DNA of 64,000 nucleotides, from NCBI RefSeq assembly GCF_014196845.1, contig NZ_JACIEM010000002.1, forward strand, positions 372,001-436,000, written 5' to 3'. Position 1 is the first letter of the stretch. Each line of letters begins with the position of its first letter. The position numbers were made by a program, and so were the translations under genes. Source of the stretch: Aurantimonas endophytica (GTDB lineage Bacteria > Pseudomonadota > Alphaproteobacteria > Rhizobiales > Rhizobiaceae). Of the stretch, positions 4,109 to 38,861 are shown one piece after another. The notes under the pieces were generated by a model. The model did no database searches, was not told where the DNA came from, and was given only the letters and a program-made list of their open reading frames with translations.

Positions 4109-4137
4109 ACATGAGCCGCCGCCGCGGCGGCTCATGT
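4109..4137. terminator. Strong convergent hairpin, likely bidirectional terminator
   Basis: A perfect inverted repeat with 13-base arms (4109-4121 and 4125-4137, arm ACATGAGCCGCCG) around a CCG loop. It sits between the stop of the small secreted protein (4077) and the stop of the convergent cytochrome gene (4151). There is no T-run on either side, so it may block transcripts or protect their 3' ends rather than act as a classical intrinsic terminator. Confidence 0.6.
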
Positions 4138-13697: not shown

Positions 13698-16600
13698 ATG
13701 TCCGACATCGATACCAAGCCCGGCTCGCAGCCAGCCCCCGCCGACGCCGTCGACTATTCCAAGACGCTTTTCCTGCCCGAGACGGAATTCCCGATGCGGG
13801 CTGGCCTGCCGCAGGCCGAGCCCGCCTGGATCGCGCAATGGGACGCGATGGACCTCTACGGCACGCTGCGAAAGGCCTCCGCCGGCCGGCCGAAATACGT
13901 GCTGCACGACGGCCCGCCTTACGCCAACGGCAACCTCCACATCGGCCACGCGCTCAACAAGATCCTCAAGGACGTCATCACCCGATCGTTCCAGATGCGC
14001 GGCTACGACGCCAATTACGTGCCCGGTTGGGACTGCCACGGCCTGCCGATCGAGTGGAAGATCGAGGAGGCCTACCGCGCCAAGGGCAAGAACAAGGACG
14101 AGGTCCCGGTCAACGAATTCCGCCAGGAATGCCGCGAGTTCGCCGCCCACTGGGTCGGCGTGCAGTCCGCCGAATTCCGCCGCCTCGGCGTCGAGGGCGA
14201 CTTCAAGAACCCGTACCTGACCATGGCCTTCGGGGCGGAGTCGGTGATCGCCGGCGAACTGCTGAAGTTCGCCATGTCCGGCCAGCTCTATCGCGGCTCC
14301 AAGCCGGTCATGTGGTCGGTGGTCGAGAAGACGGCGCTCGCCGAGGCCGAGGTCGAATACGCCGACCACGAGAGCGACACGATCTGGGCGAAGTTCCCGA
14401 TTGTTCCTCAGAATATCGTCGTAGACCGCGTCACCGGGGAGACCTCTCCTGGCGACGCGGAAGCGAGGACCCGACAGGATCTCTGGAATGCCTCGGTCGT
14501 CATCTGGACGACGACGCCCTGGACGATCCCCGGCAACCGCGCGATCGCCTTCTCGCCGCGTGTCGCCTACGGCCTCTACGAGGTGACGGCGCCTGACGAT
14601 GCCGAGAACCCGCGTTGGGCGGCATTCGGCGAAAAGCTTGTGCTCGCCGATGCATTGGCCGCCGACGTCTTCGCCAAGGCGCGCGTCCCGGAAGGGGGCT
14701 ATCGGCGCGTTGCCGATGTCTCGGCAGTCGATCTCGCTGGCCTCGTCGTTGACCATCCACTCAAGGGCCTCGGCTACACCTTCCCCGTACCGCTGCTCGA
14801 GGGCGATCACGTCACCGAGGAGGCGGGCACCGGCTTCGTCCACACCGCGCCCGGCCATGGCCGCGAGGATTTCGACGCCTGGATGGGGGCGCGCCGCGAC
14901 CTGGAAGCGCGCGGCATCGACACGGCGATCCCCTTCACCGTCGACGACGACGGCTTCTACACGAAGGACGCGCCCGGCTTCGGCCCGGACGCGCCGGAAG
15001 GGCCGGCCCGCGTCATCGACGACAAGGGCAAGAAGGGCGACGCCAACAAGCGCATCATCGACGCGCTGATCGCTTCGGGCAACCTCCTCGCCCGCGGCCG
15101 GCTGAAGCATTCCTATCCGCACAGCTGGCGATCCAAGAAGCCGGTGATCTTCCGCAACACGCCGCAATGGTTCGTCCACATGGACAAGGACCTCGGCGGC
15201 TATGGAATGGGCGGCACCGCAGGATCGGGCGCTGCCCCTCTCCCGAACCGGGAGAGGGTGGATGCGAGCGGCATCGAGCAGCCGGGTGAGGGCGTGAAGG
15301 GCGCGGGCTCCAACGAGGATACGCTGCGCGGCCGCGCCCTCCAGGCCATCGAGGAGACCCGTTTCGTGCCGGCCTCGGGCCAGAACCGGCTGCGCGGCAT
15401 GATCGCCGACCGGCCCGACTGGGTGCTTTCGCGCCAGCGCGCCTGGGGCGTGCCGATCTGCGTCTTCGCTAATACCGACGGCGAGATCCTCAAGGACGAG
15501 GCGGTCAACGCCCGCATCCTCGAGGCCTTCAACGAGGAGGGCGCCGATGCCTGGTTCGCCGAGGGCGCCAAGGAGCGCTTCCTCGGCAACGAGCACGACG
15601 GGGCCAAGTGGACGATGGTCCGCGACATTCTCGACGTCTGGTTCGACTCGGGCTCGACCCACGCCTTCTGCCTGGAGAAGCGGCCGGACCTGAAATGGCC
15701 CGCCGACCTCTATCTGGAAGGCTCCGACCAGCACCGCGGCTGGTTCCACTCCTCGCTGCTGGAAAGCTGTGGCACCCGCGGCCGGGCGCCCTACGACGCC
15801 GTCCTCACCCATGGCTTCGTCATGGACGAGGAGGGGCGCAAGATGTCGAAGTCGCTGGGCAACGTCGTGACGCCCCAGGACGTCATCAAGCAGTCCGGCG
15901 CCGACATCCTGCGGCTCTGGGTGGTCTCGTCGGACTATTCGGAGGACCTGCGCCTCGGCAAGGCGATCCTGCAGACCAATATCGACTCCTATCGCAAGCT
16001 GCGGAACACGCTGCGCTGGATGCTCGGCACGCTTGCCCACGACCGCGGCGACGAGGTGGCGCTCGCAGACATGCCGGAACTCGAGCGGCTGATGCTGCAC
16101 CGACTGGCCGAACTCGACGAGATCGTCCGCAAGGGCTACGATTCCTTCGACTTCAAGCGCATCAGCCGAACGCTGCTCGACTTCATCGTGGTCGAGCTCT
16201 CGGCCTTCTATTTCGACATCCGCAAGGACTCGCTCTATTGCGATCCGCCGTCGGCGGTGCGCCGCAAGGCCTCGCTACAGGTCGTGCGGATCATCTTCGA
16301 CCGGCTGGTCACCTGGCTCGCGCCGATGCTGCCCTTCACCATGGAGGAGGCCTGGCTGTCGCGCTATCCGCAGGCGCAGTCGGTGCATCTGGAGCAGTTC
16401 CGGCCCGCCGATCCCGCCTGGCGCGACGACGCGCTGGCGGCACGCTGGCAGAAGCTGCGCCGCATCCGGCGCGTCGTCATGGGAGCGCTGGAAGAGAAGC
16501 GGCGCGACAAGATCATCGGCTCCTCGCTGGAGGCGGCCCCGGTGGTGCATGTCGCGGACGCGGAACTGCGCGCGCTGGCGACTTCGGTCGACTTCGCCGA

Positions 16601-16838
16601 GATCGCCATCACCAGCGGCCTGACCATCTCGGCCGAGCCCGCGCCGGCGGATGCCTTCACGCTCGCCGATACGCCGGGCATCGCGGTCGTCTTCCACAAG
16701 GCCGAGGGACGCAAATGCGCAAGGTCATGGAAGATCACCGACGATGTCGGCTCCGATCCGGAGTACCCGGACGTCACGGCCCGCGACGCCGAGGCGCTGC
16801 GCGAGCTCAAGGCGCTCGGATTGCTGTCGGCGGCGTGA
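13698..16838 (+). CDS. ileS: Isoleucyl-tRNA synthetase with in-frame repeat insertion
   Basis: Charges tRNA-Ile, with an editing domain that removes Val. 1046 residues, longer than the roughly 940-1000 usual for bacterial enzymes. HIGH is at residues 81-84 and KMSKS at 715-719; the editing domain ([10 protein letters not shown], then [11 protein letters not shown]) lies between. Two segments explain the extra length: about residues 505-540 are encoded by a palindromic repeat element, and about residues 234-262 hold a second unusual insertion. The C-terminal zinc site is degenerate: KCARSW keeps one Cys and the later pair is absent. ATG 13698 is the first family-like start; an in-frame TTG lies four codons upstream. 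The frame is intact, so the enzyme is presumed functional. A hairpin follows the stop. Confidence 0.96.
14428..14458. repeat. Imperfect palindrome inside ileS
   Basis: A 31-base imperfect dyad: GCGTC...GACGC outer arms, then CC-GG and GG-CC pairs with two G-T wobbles and two mismatches. It lies in a stretch of ileS (about 14400-14485) whose codon use (ATT, GTT, CCT, GTA, TCT) is less GC-rich than the rest of the gene and which seems to add about 28 residues to the editing-domain border. It may be a decayed mobile palindromic element. Confidence 0.4.
15220..15310 (+). repeat. REP-like palindromic repeat inserted in frame within ileS
   Basis: The core is a perfect inverted repeat, CCCTCTCCCG at 15236-15245 and CGGGAGAGGG at 15249-15258 with an AAC loop. 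It is followed by GTGGATGCGAGCGG... and GCAGCCGGGTGAGGG (about 15278-15293), the usual composition of intergenic repeats widespread in alphaproteobacterial genomes. Here it is translated as a Gly/Pro/Glu-rich segment between the conserved MDKDL and [19 protein letters not shown] blocks of IleRS. Boundaries are approximate. Confidence 0.75.
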
Positions 16839-34875: not shown

Positions 34876-36693
34876 TCAACGCCGGCCGAACATCTTCTCG
34901 ATGTCGGCGAGCTTCAGCGCGATGAAGGTCGGGCGGCCGTGATTGCACTGGCCGGAGCCCGGCGTCGCCTCCATGTCGCGCAGGAGCGCGTTCATCTCTT
35001 CCGGGCGCAGGGCCCGCCCGGCTCGCACCGAGCCGTGGCAGGCGATGGTCGCTGCGACGTGGTCTATGCGGCTTTTCAGCGTGCCGGCGGTGCCGAGATC
35101 GGCGAGTTCGTCGGCGATGTCGAGGATGAGCCGCCGGCAGTCTACCTGGCCGAGGATCGCCGGCGTTTCGCGCACGGCGACCGCGCCCGGACCGAAGCGC
35201 TCGAGCGCGAGGCCCAGCTGGCCCAGCGGCTCGGCATGCTCGGCCAGCCGCTCGGCGTCGTCCTCCGGCAGGTCGACGATCTCGGGGATCAGCAAAAGCT
35301 GCGAGGCGAGCGTCTTGCCGTGCAGCGCCGTCTTTAGCGCCTCGTAGACCAGCCGCTCGTGCGCCGCGTGCTGGTCGACGATGACCATCCCGTCCTCGGT
35401 CTCGGCGACGATGAAATTGCCGTGCAGCTGCGCCCGCGCTGCGCCGAGCGGGTAGCGCCGCTCGGCGCCGGCTTCCGCTTCGATTGGGTCTGACCGCTGC
35501 GCAGGCGCTTCGCGGTCGATCGACCCTTTCACCGCGTCGTTCTCCAGCGGGCGAAAAGGCGAGGCCGCCGCGCTGTAGCGCGCCTGGTCGGGCGAGGCGA
35601 ATCCGCCGGGGGCGAAGCCGTCGAAGCGACGGGGTGCCGCAGGTGGTGCGATGTCTGGCCGGAAGCGATCCATCAGGCCGCTGGCGCCGGTGGTCGTGGC
35701 GCGCAGGCCCGCCGCCGTGAAGGCCTGGCGGATCGCGCCGACGATCAGGCCGCGCACCAGGCCGGGATCGCGGAACCGCACGTCGGCCTTGGCCGGGTGG
35801 ACGTTGACGTCGACGAGGGCCGGGTCGATGGTCAGGAACAAGACGGCCACCGGATGCCGGTCCCTGGCCATCACGTCGGCATAGGCGCCGCGTAGCGCCG
35901 ACAGGATCAGCCGGTCACGCACCGGCCTGCCGTTCACATAGACATATTGCGCCAGCGCGTTGCCGCGGTGGAAGGTCGGCAGGCCGGCGAAGCCATCGAG
36001 CTGCACGCCTTCGCGTTCTGCTGCGATGGCGATGGCGTTGGCGCCGAAATCCTTGCCGACCACCGCCTCGATGCGCCGCAGGCTGTCGCGGCCGTCGACC
36101 GCCTCGAACACCGTCTGGGTGCGGTCGGGACCGGCGAGCTCGAATCGCACGTCCGGGAACGCAATGGCGAGGCGCCGGACGATCTCGGTGATCGCCGCGC
36201 CTTCCGCCCGGTCGCTCTTCAAGAACTTCAGCCGGGCCGGCACGGCGTGGAAGAGGTCGCGGACCTCGACCACCGTGCCGCGCGACAAGGCCGCCGGGCG
36301 CGGCCCGCTGCTCCGGCCCCCGTCGACGGCAATCTCGAAGGCTTCCGCCGCGCCGGCGACGCGGGACTTCACCGTCAGCCGCGCGACCGACCCGATCGAG
36401 GGCAGCGCCTCGCCGCGAAAGCCGAGTGTTTCGATGGCGTCGAGGCCGCCGGAAAGCTTGGAGGTGCAGTGCCGCCGCACCGCCAGCGGCAATTCGTCGG
36501 CGGCGATGCCGCTGCCGTCGTCGGTGACGCGCAAGAGGCTCTTGCCGCCGGCGGCCGTGGCGATCTCGATGCGCCGCGCGCCGGCGTCGAGCGCGTTCTC
36601 GATCAGTTCCTTGGCGACGCTCGCCGGCCGCTCGACCACTTCGCCGGCGGCGATCTGGTCGATCAGGGCATCGGAGAGCTGGGCAATCGCCAT
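34876..36693 (-). CDS. mutL: DNA mismatch repair protein MutL
   Basis: Couples mismatch recognition by MutS to strand removal. 605 residues: GHKL ATPase domain with [11 protein letters not shown] (about residues 29-39), DDGSGI, and [10 protein letters not shown] (about 92-101), then a Pro/Ala-rich linker at about 340-415 and a C-terminal dimerisation domain. The endonuclease motif DQHA-XX-E-XXXX-E is present ([12 protein letters not shown]), with ACHGSVRAG downstream, so this MutL should nick DNA itself, as in MutH-less bacteria. It lies downstream of glgX on the same strand with 113 bases between and may have its own promoter. Confidence 0.96.
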
Positions 36694-36806: not shown

Positions 36807-38861
36807 TCAGGCGCGTTCCTCGAGCATGACGTAGACCGACCGGCCCTCGACGATCAGCGTCTCGCCGGCATCCACCACGCATGGTTGCTCCTGTGGCGCA
36901 TCGGAACGGACATGCAGGCAGAAGCGATGGCCGGGGCGCGGCGACGGCAGCGTCACCATCGCGGGCGCGTGCGTAGCGTTCAGATAGATCACCGCCCGTT
37001 CGCTCTCGTCCTCGGCCGCGCGGCACGGCGCATAGACCGACATGCCGAGGAAGCGGCGTTCGCCATCATCCCAGTCGGCCTCGCCCATCACCGCGCCATC
37101 CTCGCGCAGCCACGCGACGTCCGGCACGCCGCCGTCATCGACCGGTGCGCCGGTCAGGAAGCGGTCGGCGCTCAGAGCCGGGTGCTCGCGCCGCAGCCGG
37201 GAAAGCCGCCCGGTGAAGTCGATCAGCGTCTGGTCGGCCTTCTCCCAGTCCAGCCACGAAATCTCGTTATCCTGGCAGTAGGCGTTGTTGTTGCCGCGCT
37301 GGGTACGGCCGAACTCGTCTCCGGCGACGATCATCGGCGTGCCGCGCGACACCAGCAACGTCGCCAGCAGCGCCCTTATGTCCTTGCCGCGCGCCTCGAT
37401 GATCGCCGGATCGTCGGTCTCGCCCTCGACACCGTTGTTCCAGGAATGATTGTCGTTGTGGCCGTCGCGATTGTCCTCGCCGTTGGCCTCGTTGTGCTTC
37501 TCGGCATACATGACGATGTCGGCGAGGGTGAAGCCGTCATGCGCCGCGATGTAATTGACGCTGGCCGACGGGGCCCGCCCGTCATGGTTGTAGATGTCGG
37601 CGGAACCGGCAAGCCGCGTCGCCAGCGCCCCGGTCATGAAGCCGGCGCCCTTCCAGAACTGCCGGACGTCGTCGCGGAACCGGTCCTGCCATTCGAACCA
37701 CGGTTTGGGAAAATTGCCGACCTGGTAGCCGCCCGGCCCGACATCCCAGGGCTCGGCCACATGGATGCGGTCCTTCAGCAGCGGATCTGCGGCGACCATC
37801 CTGAAGAACGGTGCGTCGGTCGAGAAGCCGCCATCGACGCGGCCGAGCACGGTGGCGAGATCGTAGCGGAAGCCGTCGATGCCCGTGGTCTCGACCCATG
37901 TCCGCAGCACGTCGACGAACATCTTGGCGACCGGCGCCTTGTCGGCCGCCATGGTGTTGCCGGTGCCGGTGTCGTTCAGCATGAAGGCCGGCTCGCCCTC
38001 CGGGTGGCGGTAGTAGAGCAGATTGTCGAGGCCGCGATAGCTGATCGTCGGGCCGGTCTCGTCGCCCTCGCCGGAGTGGTTGAAGACGACGTCGAGCAGC
38101 ACGCGGATGCCGCGCGCATGCAGCGCCTCGACCGTGCGGCGGATCTCGGCGAGACCGCCGGGCGCAAGCCGCGGATCCGGCGCCATGTGGGTGATCGGGT
38201 TGTAGCCCCAGGCATTGGTGAGGTTCAGATGGAGCAGATGGCCTTCGTCGATCCAGGCGGCAAGCGGCATCAGCTCGACCGTCTCGACACCGATCTTCTG
38301 CAGGTGGTCGAGCAGGTAGGGCTCGGCCAGCGCCGCGACGGTGCCGCGGATCGTGGCGGGCACGTCCGGATGGCGCTGGGTGAAGGCGCGAACCTGCATC
38401 TCGTAGGTGAAGCCCGGCGTCGCGAAGGGCAGCGGCGCGGCGTCGCGCGCCAGATCCGTGACCACCGCCCGCGGCACGAAGGCGGCGCTGTCCAACTCGC
38501 GCTCCGGTGGCGCGGTCAGCGCCGGCGTGTAGACGAACGGCCGGTCGAGCTGGACCGCATAGGGGTCGACCAGCAGCTTGGAATAGTCGAAGCGGTGGCC
38601 GGCCTCCGGCTCGAACGGCCCGACGGCCCGCAGCCCGTAGCGGGCGCCGGCGGCAAGCCCCGGCACGAAGCCGTAGCGCGTACCCCCATTGCGGCCGGGC
38701 AGCGGCAGCCTGTCGGTTTCGAGGCTCCCCGCCTCGTCGAACAGGCAGAGATGGATCTGTTCGGCATTTTCCGAATAGACGGCGAAGTGGACGCCGTCCG
38801 CATCGATCGTCGCGCCGAGCGCGGTCGGCCTGCCGCGCTCGGCGGTGATGTCGTAGGTCAT
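36807..38861 (-). CDS. glgX: Glycogen debranching enzyme (isoamylase type)
   Basis: Hydrolyses alpha-1,6 branch points of phosphorylase limit dextrin. 684 residues: N-terminal CBM48-like domain (VHFAVYSENAEQIHLCLFDE), GH13 catalytic barrel with the family triad in DGFRYDLATVLG (nucleophile Asp), AEPWDVGPGGYQVGNFP (acid Glu) and AAHDGFTLADIVMY (third Asp), then a C-terminal beta domain. Last gene of the glg operon, 16 bases after pgm. Its presence implies that a branched polymer is made, although no branching enzyme gene is found in the operon. Confidence 0.94.
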   Translation of the reverse strand: MTYDITAERGRPTALGATIDADGVHFAVYSENAEQIHLCLFDEAGSLETDRLPLPGRNGGTRYGFVPGLAAGARYGLRAVGPFEPEAGHRFDYSKLLVDPYAVQLDRPFVYTPALTAPPERELDSAAFVPRAVVTDLARDAAPLPFATPGFTYEMQVRAFTQRHPDVPATIRGTVAALAEPYLLDHLQKIGVETVELMPLAAWIDEGHLLHLNLTNAWGYNPITHMAPDPRLAPGGLAEIRRTVEALHARGIRVLLDVVFNHSGEGDETGPTISYRGLDNLLYYRHPEGEPAFMLNDTGTGNTMAADKAPVAKMFVDVLRTWVETTGIDGFRYDLATVLGRVDGGFSTDAPFFRMVAADPLLKDRIHVAEPWDVGPGGYQVGNFPKPWFEWQDRFRDDVRQFWKGAGFMTGALATRLAGSADIYNHDGRAPSASVNYIAAHDGFTLADIVMYAEKHNEANGEDNRDGHNDNHSWNNGVEGETDDPAIIEARGKDIRALLATLLVSRGTPMIVAGDEFGRTQRGNNNAYCQDNEISWLDWEKADQTLIDFTGRLSRLRREHPALSADRFLTGAPVDDGGVPDVAWLREDGAVMGEADWDDGERRFLGMSVYAPCRAAEDESERAVIYLNATHAPAMVTLPSPRPGHRFCLHVRSDAPQEQPCVVDAGETLIVEGRSVYVMLEERA

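Follow-up and report, generated by a model that had tools for sequence, protein, structure and literature searches.

How does a palindromic DNA repeat come to be read as part of a protein, and what becomes of it there? The first translated palindromic repeats to be described were those of Rickettsia; such repeats have since been reported from scattered genes in other bacteria. The question is raised here by ileS, the isoleucyl-tRNA synthetase (IleRS) gene of Aurantimonas endophytica, which lies in the window, that is, the whole stretch of 64,000 nucleotides that was analysed. A first-pass annotation had proposed that a palindromic repeat stands in frame within this gene, as in Rickettsia. This reading is supported by our results, with translation as an expectation. 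The features to which we refer are as follows:

13698..16838, forward strand: ileS, isoleucyl-tRNA synthetase (type 1), 1046 aa; TIGR00392 match of 750 bits, cut-off 621
14754..14780, forward strand: site A, empty in this genome and filled in some relatives; HPLKGLGYT, editing-domain loop near residue 356
15213..15308, forward strand: site B loop, residues 504-535, predicted disordered (AlphaFold2, pLDDT <50)
15236..15295, forward strand: palindromic repeat unit R1 (hairpin and tail), about 60 bp, with four own-genome copies elsewhere
15236..15258, forward strand: perfect 10-bp dyad with a 3-nt loop, from the hairpin scan
15259..15295, forward strand: conserved R1 tail TGGATGCGAGCGG...CGGGTGAGGG, from the alignment of copies

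The in-frame position holds: the reading frame is open across the whole repeat segment, from which we infer that the segment is translated within IleRS, and the 750-bit TIGR00392 match identifies the protein. This protein (P0001) starts at the ATG of ileS at 13698; residue 1 in our numbering is the codon at 13704, the ATG lying two codons further upstream. No second IleRS was found among the own-genome matches listed (three of six), the others listed being paralogues at 26-27%.

The dyad was said to have perfect 10-base arms at 15236-15258, and we find CCCTCTCCCG-AAC-CGGGAGAGGG exactly there, with a loop of 3. The two motifs said to follow it, GTGGATGCGAGCGG and GCCGGGTGAGGG, both come after the dyad. 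The R1 core codes for about residues 512-531 of IleRS. The addition, first put at about 30 to 35 residues, measures 27 residues relative to the nearest relative (45 versus 18) and 38 relative to 12 of the 31 genomes with a readable site B loop (46 versus 8). The window holds four hairpins with arms of at least 10 and a loop of 3-12, the dyad in ileS being one of them; thus, its size by itself is not unusual. The other three, at 4109-4137, 35441-35468, and 38813-38844, have sequences unlike R1. The CCCCTCTCCCNNNNCGGGAGAGG pattern, with up to three mismatches, is expected 0.12 times in window shuffles. GCCGGGTGAGGG alone is not enriched at up to two mismatches (18 in the window versus 18.6 in shuffles), and 10 query units found no other R1-like unit in the window outside ileS, with no match longer than 16 bases. 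Rfam 15 gave no match in 14900-15600 (E up to 1), nor in the whole window at the gathering score, which rules out a curated RNA element.

Further copies of the segment exist in the 5.0-Mb genome of the window (G000). The 59-bp R1 core (15237-15295) matches C1:1447645 (88%, E 7.6e-14), C7:173398 (87%, E 5e-13), and C4:195819 (78%, E 3.6e-5), all three obtained with a 101-bp query at E <1e-4. A fourth copy, C2:462367, was found with the C7 copy as query and is 81% identical to it. The copies have the hairpin and tail in common, while the hairpin loop and the middle are variable. All four lie outside coding-like frames, called from base composition without annotation, and start 459, 10, 87, and 37 nt past a frame end; by a stop-to-stop count, the C4 copy also adjoins a second coding-like frame. 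They are apparently intergenic, and the element is a dispersed palindromic repeat, as had been claimed.

The window's GTDB genus is represented by eight genomes, including Aurantimonas aggregata (G002), A. coralicida (G007), A. marina (G001), and A. manganoxydans (G005). R1 is present in five of the eight (E up to 1e-4; one to five matches each), namely the window's genome and four more, which have it at loci other than ileS. The C1 copy has the same position and flanks in G003, as does the C2 copy in G002 and G006. These shared positions suggest that the C1 and C2 copies likely predate the one in ileS. R1 is a low-copy dispersed repeat, in part older than the split of these species. The idea of an ordinary length-variable loop that happens to contain a palindrome retains next to no probability. 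Loop length does vary among IleRS, a 44-residue insert without obvious repeat occupies site B in G006, and the window has three other hairpins of such size; set against this, the four additional own-genome copies (E down to 7.6e-14) and those at other loci in four genus genomes rule out a chance palindrome. A Y1/RAYT transposase (PF01797) was detected in none of the seven genomes searched (G000, G002, G009, and the hosts of L093, L105, L126, and L139), in a search that was positive in 5 of 14 control genomes. On this absence from seven of seven genomes, we reject a RAYT-borne REP.

Within the genus, R1 occurs in ileS in one of the eight genomes, that of the window. Site B is empty in the two nearest relatives: it reads GGFGINAGVTAPADDTLR in G003, which is 95% identical in one part and 90% in the other, and GGYGINAGVTAPADDTLR in G002, which is 91% identical. 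The remaining five members are also without R1 in ileS, G004 and G006 having other inserts there. The simplest reading is that R1 was likely gained in ileS of this lineage after its split from the nearest relatives. In a phylum-wide sample, 58 of 60 genomes match, and nearly all rows listed stop near 493-504 and resume near 530-541, a break that rules out a conserved IleRS feature. One genome, G072, aligns across site B, owing to an insert of its own. We read 29 phylum loci, with 27 readable site B loops, and a long repeat was present only in L290 (G072). As the annotation's reading would have it, neither the two nearest relatives nor the distant IleRS loops that we read contain the element. 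One observation complicates the timing. P0002 and P0006, which lie outside the window's clade, share the PLPNRER-type hairpin-loop peptide with the window's IleRS, and the intergenic copies of its own genome have hairpin loops other than this variant. This hints at an older insertion followed by losses, or at exchange from ileS to ileS.

Where in the protein does the repeat fall? The structure was predicted with AlphaFold2 from 82 sequences (mean pLDDT 86); a shallower model from 33 close sequences (mean pLDDT 64) was discarded because its quality was too low. The best solved folds for the model are 8c9e, 8c9f, and 1qu2 (1qu2_A, TM 0.87 by target length). Site B is flanked in the model by a strand (482-492) and a helix (541-551), and residues 504-535 are predicted to lack secondary structure. 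Other stretches of low pLDDT are residues 204-219 and 472-481. In a sequence alignment with S. aureus IleRS (1ffy), the flanks of site B align up to residue 418 and from residue 420. R1 is thus predicted to fall in a disordered loop that corresponds to a one-residue turn in the S. aureus enzyme.

Both site B and site A receive other inserts. By our reading, palindromic or repeat-like inserts stand at one or the other site in 9 of 80 named Rhizobiaceae/Aurantimonadaceae relatives: site B is filled in seven (L084, L085, L087, L103, L105, L114, and L126) and site A in five (L084, L085, L093, L126, and L139). A second sample of 40 relatives gave 31 readable site B loops, with repeat-like inserts in four (G000, G004, G009, and G024). 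The insert of G006 (L036) at site B is less GC-rich and has no obvious palindrome. In G004 (L035), the only close IleRS among the matches listed has an in-frame TAG at the edge of the site B insert, which may be read as a sequencing error, a split gene, or readthrough. Outside these families, L290, from another alphaproteobacterial family, has at site B an inverted stem-loop pair with CGTC adjoining the stem, as judged by eye, and its insert has 75 matches in its genome, both strands counted.

We also classified the loops of 120 proteins, with families assigned by text patterns on the peptides. The set was drawn with the region containing the insert, so that the following proportions are biased: of 112 full-length proteins, 42 have short loops, 62 belong to at least one pattern-defined family, and 8 are unclassified. 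Three family patterns are matched within one loop of P0006, and a single family occupies both sites of one protein in Pararhizobium mangrovi (G009) and in Tianweitania populi (L126). Loop B of P0109 consists of three tandem copies of a unit of about 30 residues (GGKPDRASAGQAAPAERSRASGDSV). Among 114 further proteins, drawn with a profile that favours the consensus, three B loops were flagged and none was repeat-like by eye.

For twelve other host genomes, we joined their inserts into two queries and searched the genomes with these. Further copies of the insert, or of half of it, were clear among the matches listed in six: Jiella mangrovi, Aureimonas glaciei, Tianweitania populi, Rhizobiaceae MAG ECS31B3, Aquibium sp. 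ELW1220, and P. mangrovi. Among the matches listed, no clear copies were found for Jiella avicenniae, Fulvimarina manganoxydans, Aquibium carbonis, Paramesorhizobium deserti, G004 (4 matches in all), and G024 (38 in all); in F. manganoxydans, the ileS copy is the sole match to its insert. The site B loop is likely a landing place for stray DNA.

Loop content could instead have been exchanged between ileS genes by homologous recombination, or inherited with many losses, rather than freshly inserted. The window would then have received or kept an R1-bearing loop also found in other Aurantimonadaceae. The PLPNRER peptide would fit such a history, as would the site A inserts of J. avicenniae (L084) and J. 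mangrovi (L085), which are 86% identical over 155 bp, spacer included, and thus likely descend from one insert. Furthermore, many inserts are bordered by conserved LGGYG and DTLR flanks, through which recombination could occur. We nevertheless regard this as unlikely for the window. Outside the R1 core, its loop differs in both length and sequence from those of P0002 and P0006. Different families occupy the same loop, and six hosts have copies of the insert or of half of it in their own genome, which points to a local supply.

How often does the loop content change? A quick tree of 85 IleRS, built after both loops had been taken out, gives 11 changes for the 11 filled site B rows (G006, with its non-repeat insert, included) and 6 for the 6 filled site A rows; in a 112-row quick tree, the family label switches 46 times (changes per rows: R1 11/11, R2 5/5, R3 8/8, R5 11/13, R6 12/17, and R7 6/9), all of these being counts that merge gain, loss, and exchange and overstate independent gains. 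We find 39 close pairs, with identities of at least 92% once the loops are set aside. A loop longer than 24 residues occurs in 20 of them; the loops are less than 0.6 alike in 16 of these 20, although the pairs share members and are non-independent. At least four close pairs have two different recognisable inserts (P0056/P0078, P0097/P0098, P0006/P0014, and P0058/P0105). Judged from sequence, the insert content of IleRS loops turns over quickly.

R1 itself is apparently used in two reading frames at site B. By peptide pattern, 6 of 120 proteins have it in the GERV/NRER frame, to which P0006 (NRERA) is added by eye as the seventh, and 4 of 120 have it in the GEGG frame. Four R1 copies compared as DNA (the window unit, L004, L105B, and L037B) have one forward frame stopped and two open. 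The use of two frames argues against selection for one peptide and for a stop filter.

Hairpins are concentrated in the two loops. With perfect arms of at least 9 and loops of 3-14, loops A and B of 80 ileS genes contain 10 hairpins in 5,562 nt (1.80 per kb), and the rest of these genes 19 in 225,267 nt (0.084 per kb), so that the loops are about 21-fold denser. The 10 hairpins are spread over seven genes, and the filled loops of L087 and L126 hold none. This density, at two loops of one multi-domain enzyme, would be compatible with a hairpin kept for a purpose, either slowing ribosomes on the ileS mRNA between the editing-domain and catalytic-core segments and so aiding folding, or tuning expression. 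The perfect 10-bp arms of the dyad and the folding of the R1 unit (z -2.6 versus shuffles) would also agree with such a role. We think it very improbable, however, for the hairpin is absent from close relatives, and families, lengths, and frames vary between close proteins. The stems of the intergenic copies are well paired too, so that pairing need not be selected in ileS. It is also decidedly unlikely that the IleRS loops are true exchange hotspots, in which repeats from unrelated families arrive, displace each other, and disappear at a rate far above that of other loops, through a useful mRNA hairpin (pausing) or a locus that attracts the mover. If they were, IleRS would be a natural tag recording which repeats move in a lineage.

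We consider it probable that a dispersed REP-like repeat lies in frame in ileS, with an arrival that likely postdates the split from its nearest relatives and a predicted translation product that forms an unstructured loop, likely tolerated by the enzyme. R1 would be copied or moved, with no Y1/RAYT transposase found in the seven genomes searched, and would land in many places. Within genes, copies would survive only if they add a number of nucleotides divisible by three, introduce no stop, and keep their residues out of the fold. IleRS would have two sites of this kind: loop A within the editing domain, and loop B at the point where the chain returns from that domain to the catalytic core. 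Both would act as landing pads that quickly gain, replace, or lose their content. The best reading of the inserts is that they are dispersed repeats tolerated in loops predicted to be unstructured, and the data may be explained without any benefit to the cell.

How does this compare with known repeats? The available parts of the literature describe Rickettsia palindromic elements (RPE; Ogata et al. 2000/2002, cited in PMC2229807 and PMC3733652), the in-frame palindromic elements reviewed in PMC2229807, as 105-146 bp long with terminal inverted repeats, and the RPE-7 insert table of PMC3767692 includes R. japonica ileS. Like these, R1 is a dispersed palindromic repeat, in frame in a conserved gene and absent from relatives. 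Unlike the RPE as described there, its core is 59-60 bp, with one main hairpin in place of the terminal repeats; its host belongs to another lineage, and different families fill one site. The likeness is one of description only; as regards how the element behaves, the Rickettsia parallel drawn in the first-pass annotation is borne out.

According to the available part of PMC3733652, REPs of the GTAG and CGTC superfamilies are found within genes in a number of species; many of them lie in genes for repair, UvrD for example, and some in genes for tRNA synthetases. The only reuse of roughly one site that is reported there concerns recB of two Xanthomonas; here, members of different genera reuse two loops of IleRS. 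The same portion of that paper gives CGTC-tagged REPs an unpaired CGTC beside a stem of 8-9 bp that closes a loop of 4-5 nt. By eye, the window unit differs in its 10-bp stem and 3-nt loop and has no CGTC beside the stem, whereas the L290 insert does have one. Nor does R1 resemble a GTAG-tagged REP with its RAYT, as there is no GTAG beside the window stem and no PF01797 in the genome. The RIME and AB, C palindromes of rhizobia (Osteras et al. 1995, cited in PMC2573895) are similarly dispersed in rhizobial genomes, at dozens per genome, but are described as intergenic in the available part of PMC2573895, a comparison made by description only. We found no report of palindromic repeats reused at IleRS loops in the papers searched, mostly freely readable ones. 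Translated REPs are themselves already known; what is new is that two loops in a single essential enzyme are reused and change their content fast.

One essential protein thereby becomes a replicated natural experiment, with two loops, several repeat families, one of them apparently read in two frames, and both empty and filled close relatives. It allows measurement of how repeats without a known transposase spread and of the rate at which protein loops take up stray DNA. It also allows us to ask whether added peptides ever acquire a role. A caution follows for annotation: Gly/Pro-rich inserts in alphaproteobacterial enzymes can be repeat DNA.

In-frame repeat copies are also found in glyS (GlyRS-beta; L173, L174, L175, L197, L199, and L214), in a UvrD/PcrA-type helicase (L171, L176, L201, L212, and L213), and in pyruvate dehydrogenase E2 (L205 and L208). 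These gene families were checked with profiles for L173 and L250 (glyS), L212 (best pcrA, below cut-off), and L205, and assigned by motifs in common for the rest. The glyS gene of the window's genome (L250, G000:C2:493465-495582) carries an in-frame palindromic composite, matched as DNA at C2:495004-495150, which reads ISPLVGEMPGRAEGG...ISPTRGEI. The composite is present in G002 (A. aggregata) and probably common to G003 too. The helicase of the same genome has a short loop at the repeat position. At several other loci that we read, the repeat stands outside any coding-like frame, in keeping with a mostly intergenic element. The helicase loop before CCVGDDDQSIYGWRG holds different repeats in several genera (L171, L176, L201, L212, and L213), and the glyS of Aquibium sp. 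ELW1220 (L197/L214) accommodates palindromic insertions at three separate places within one frame.
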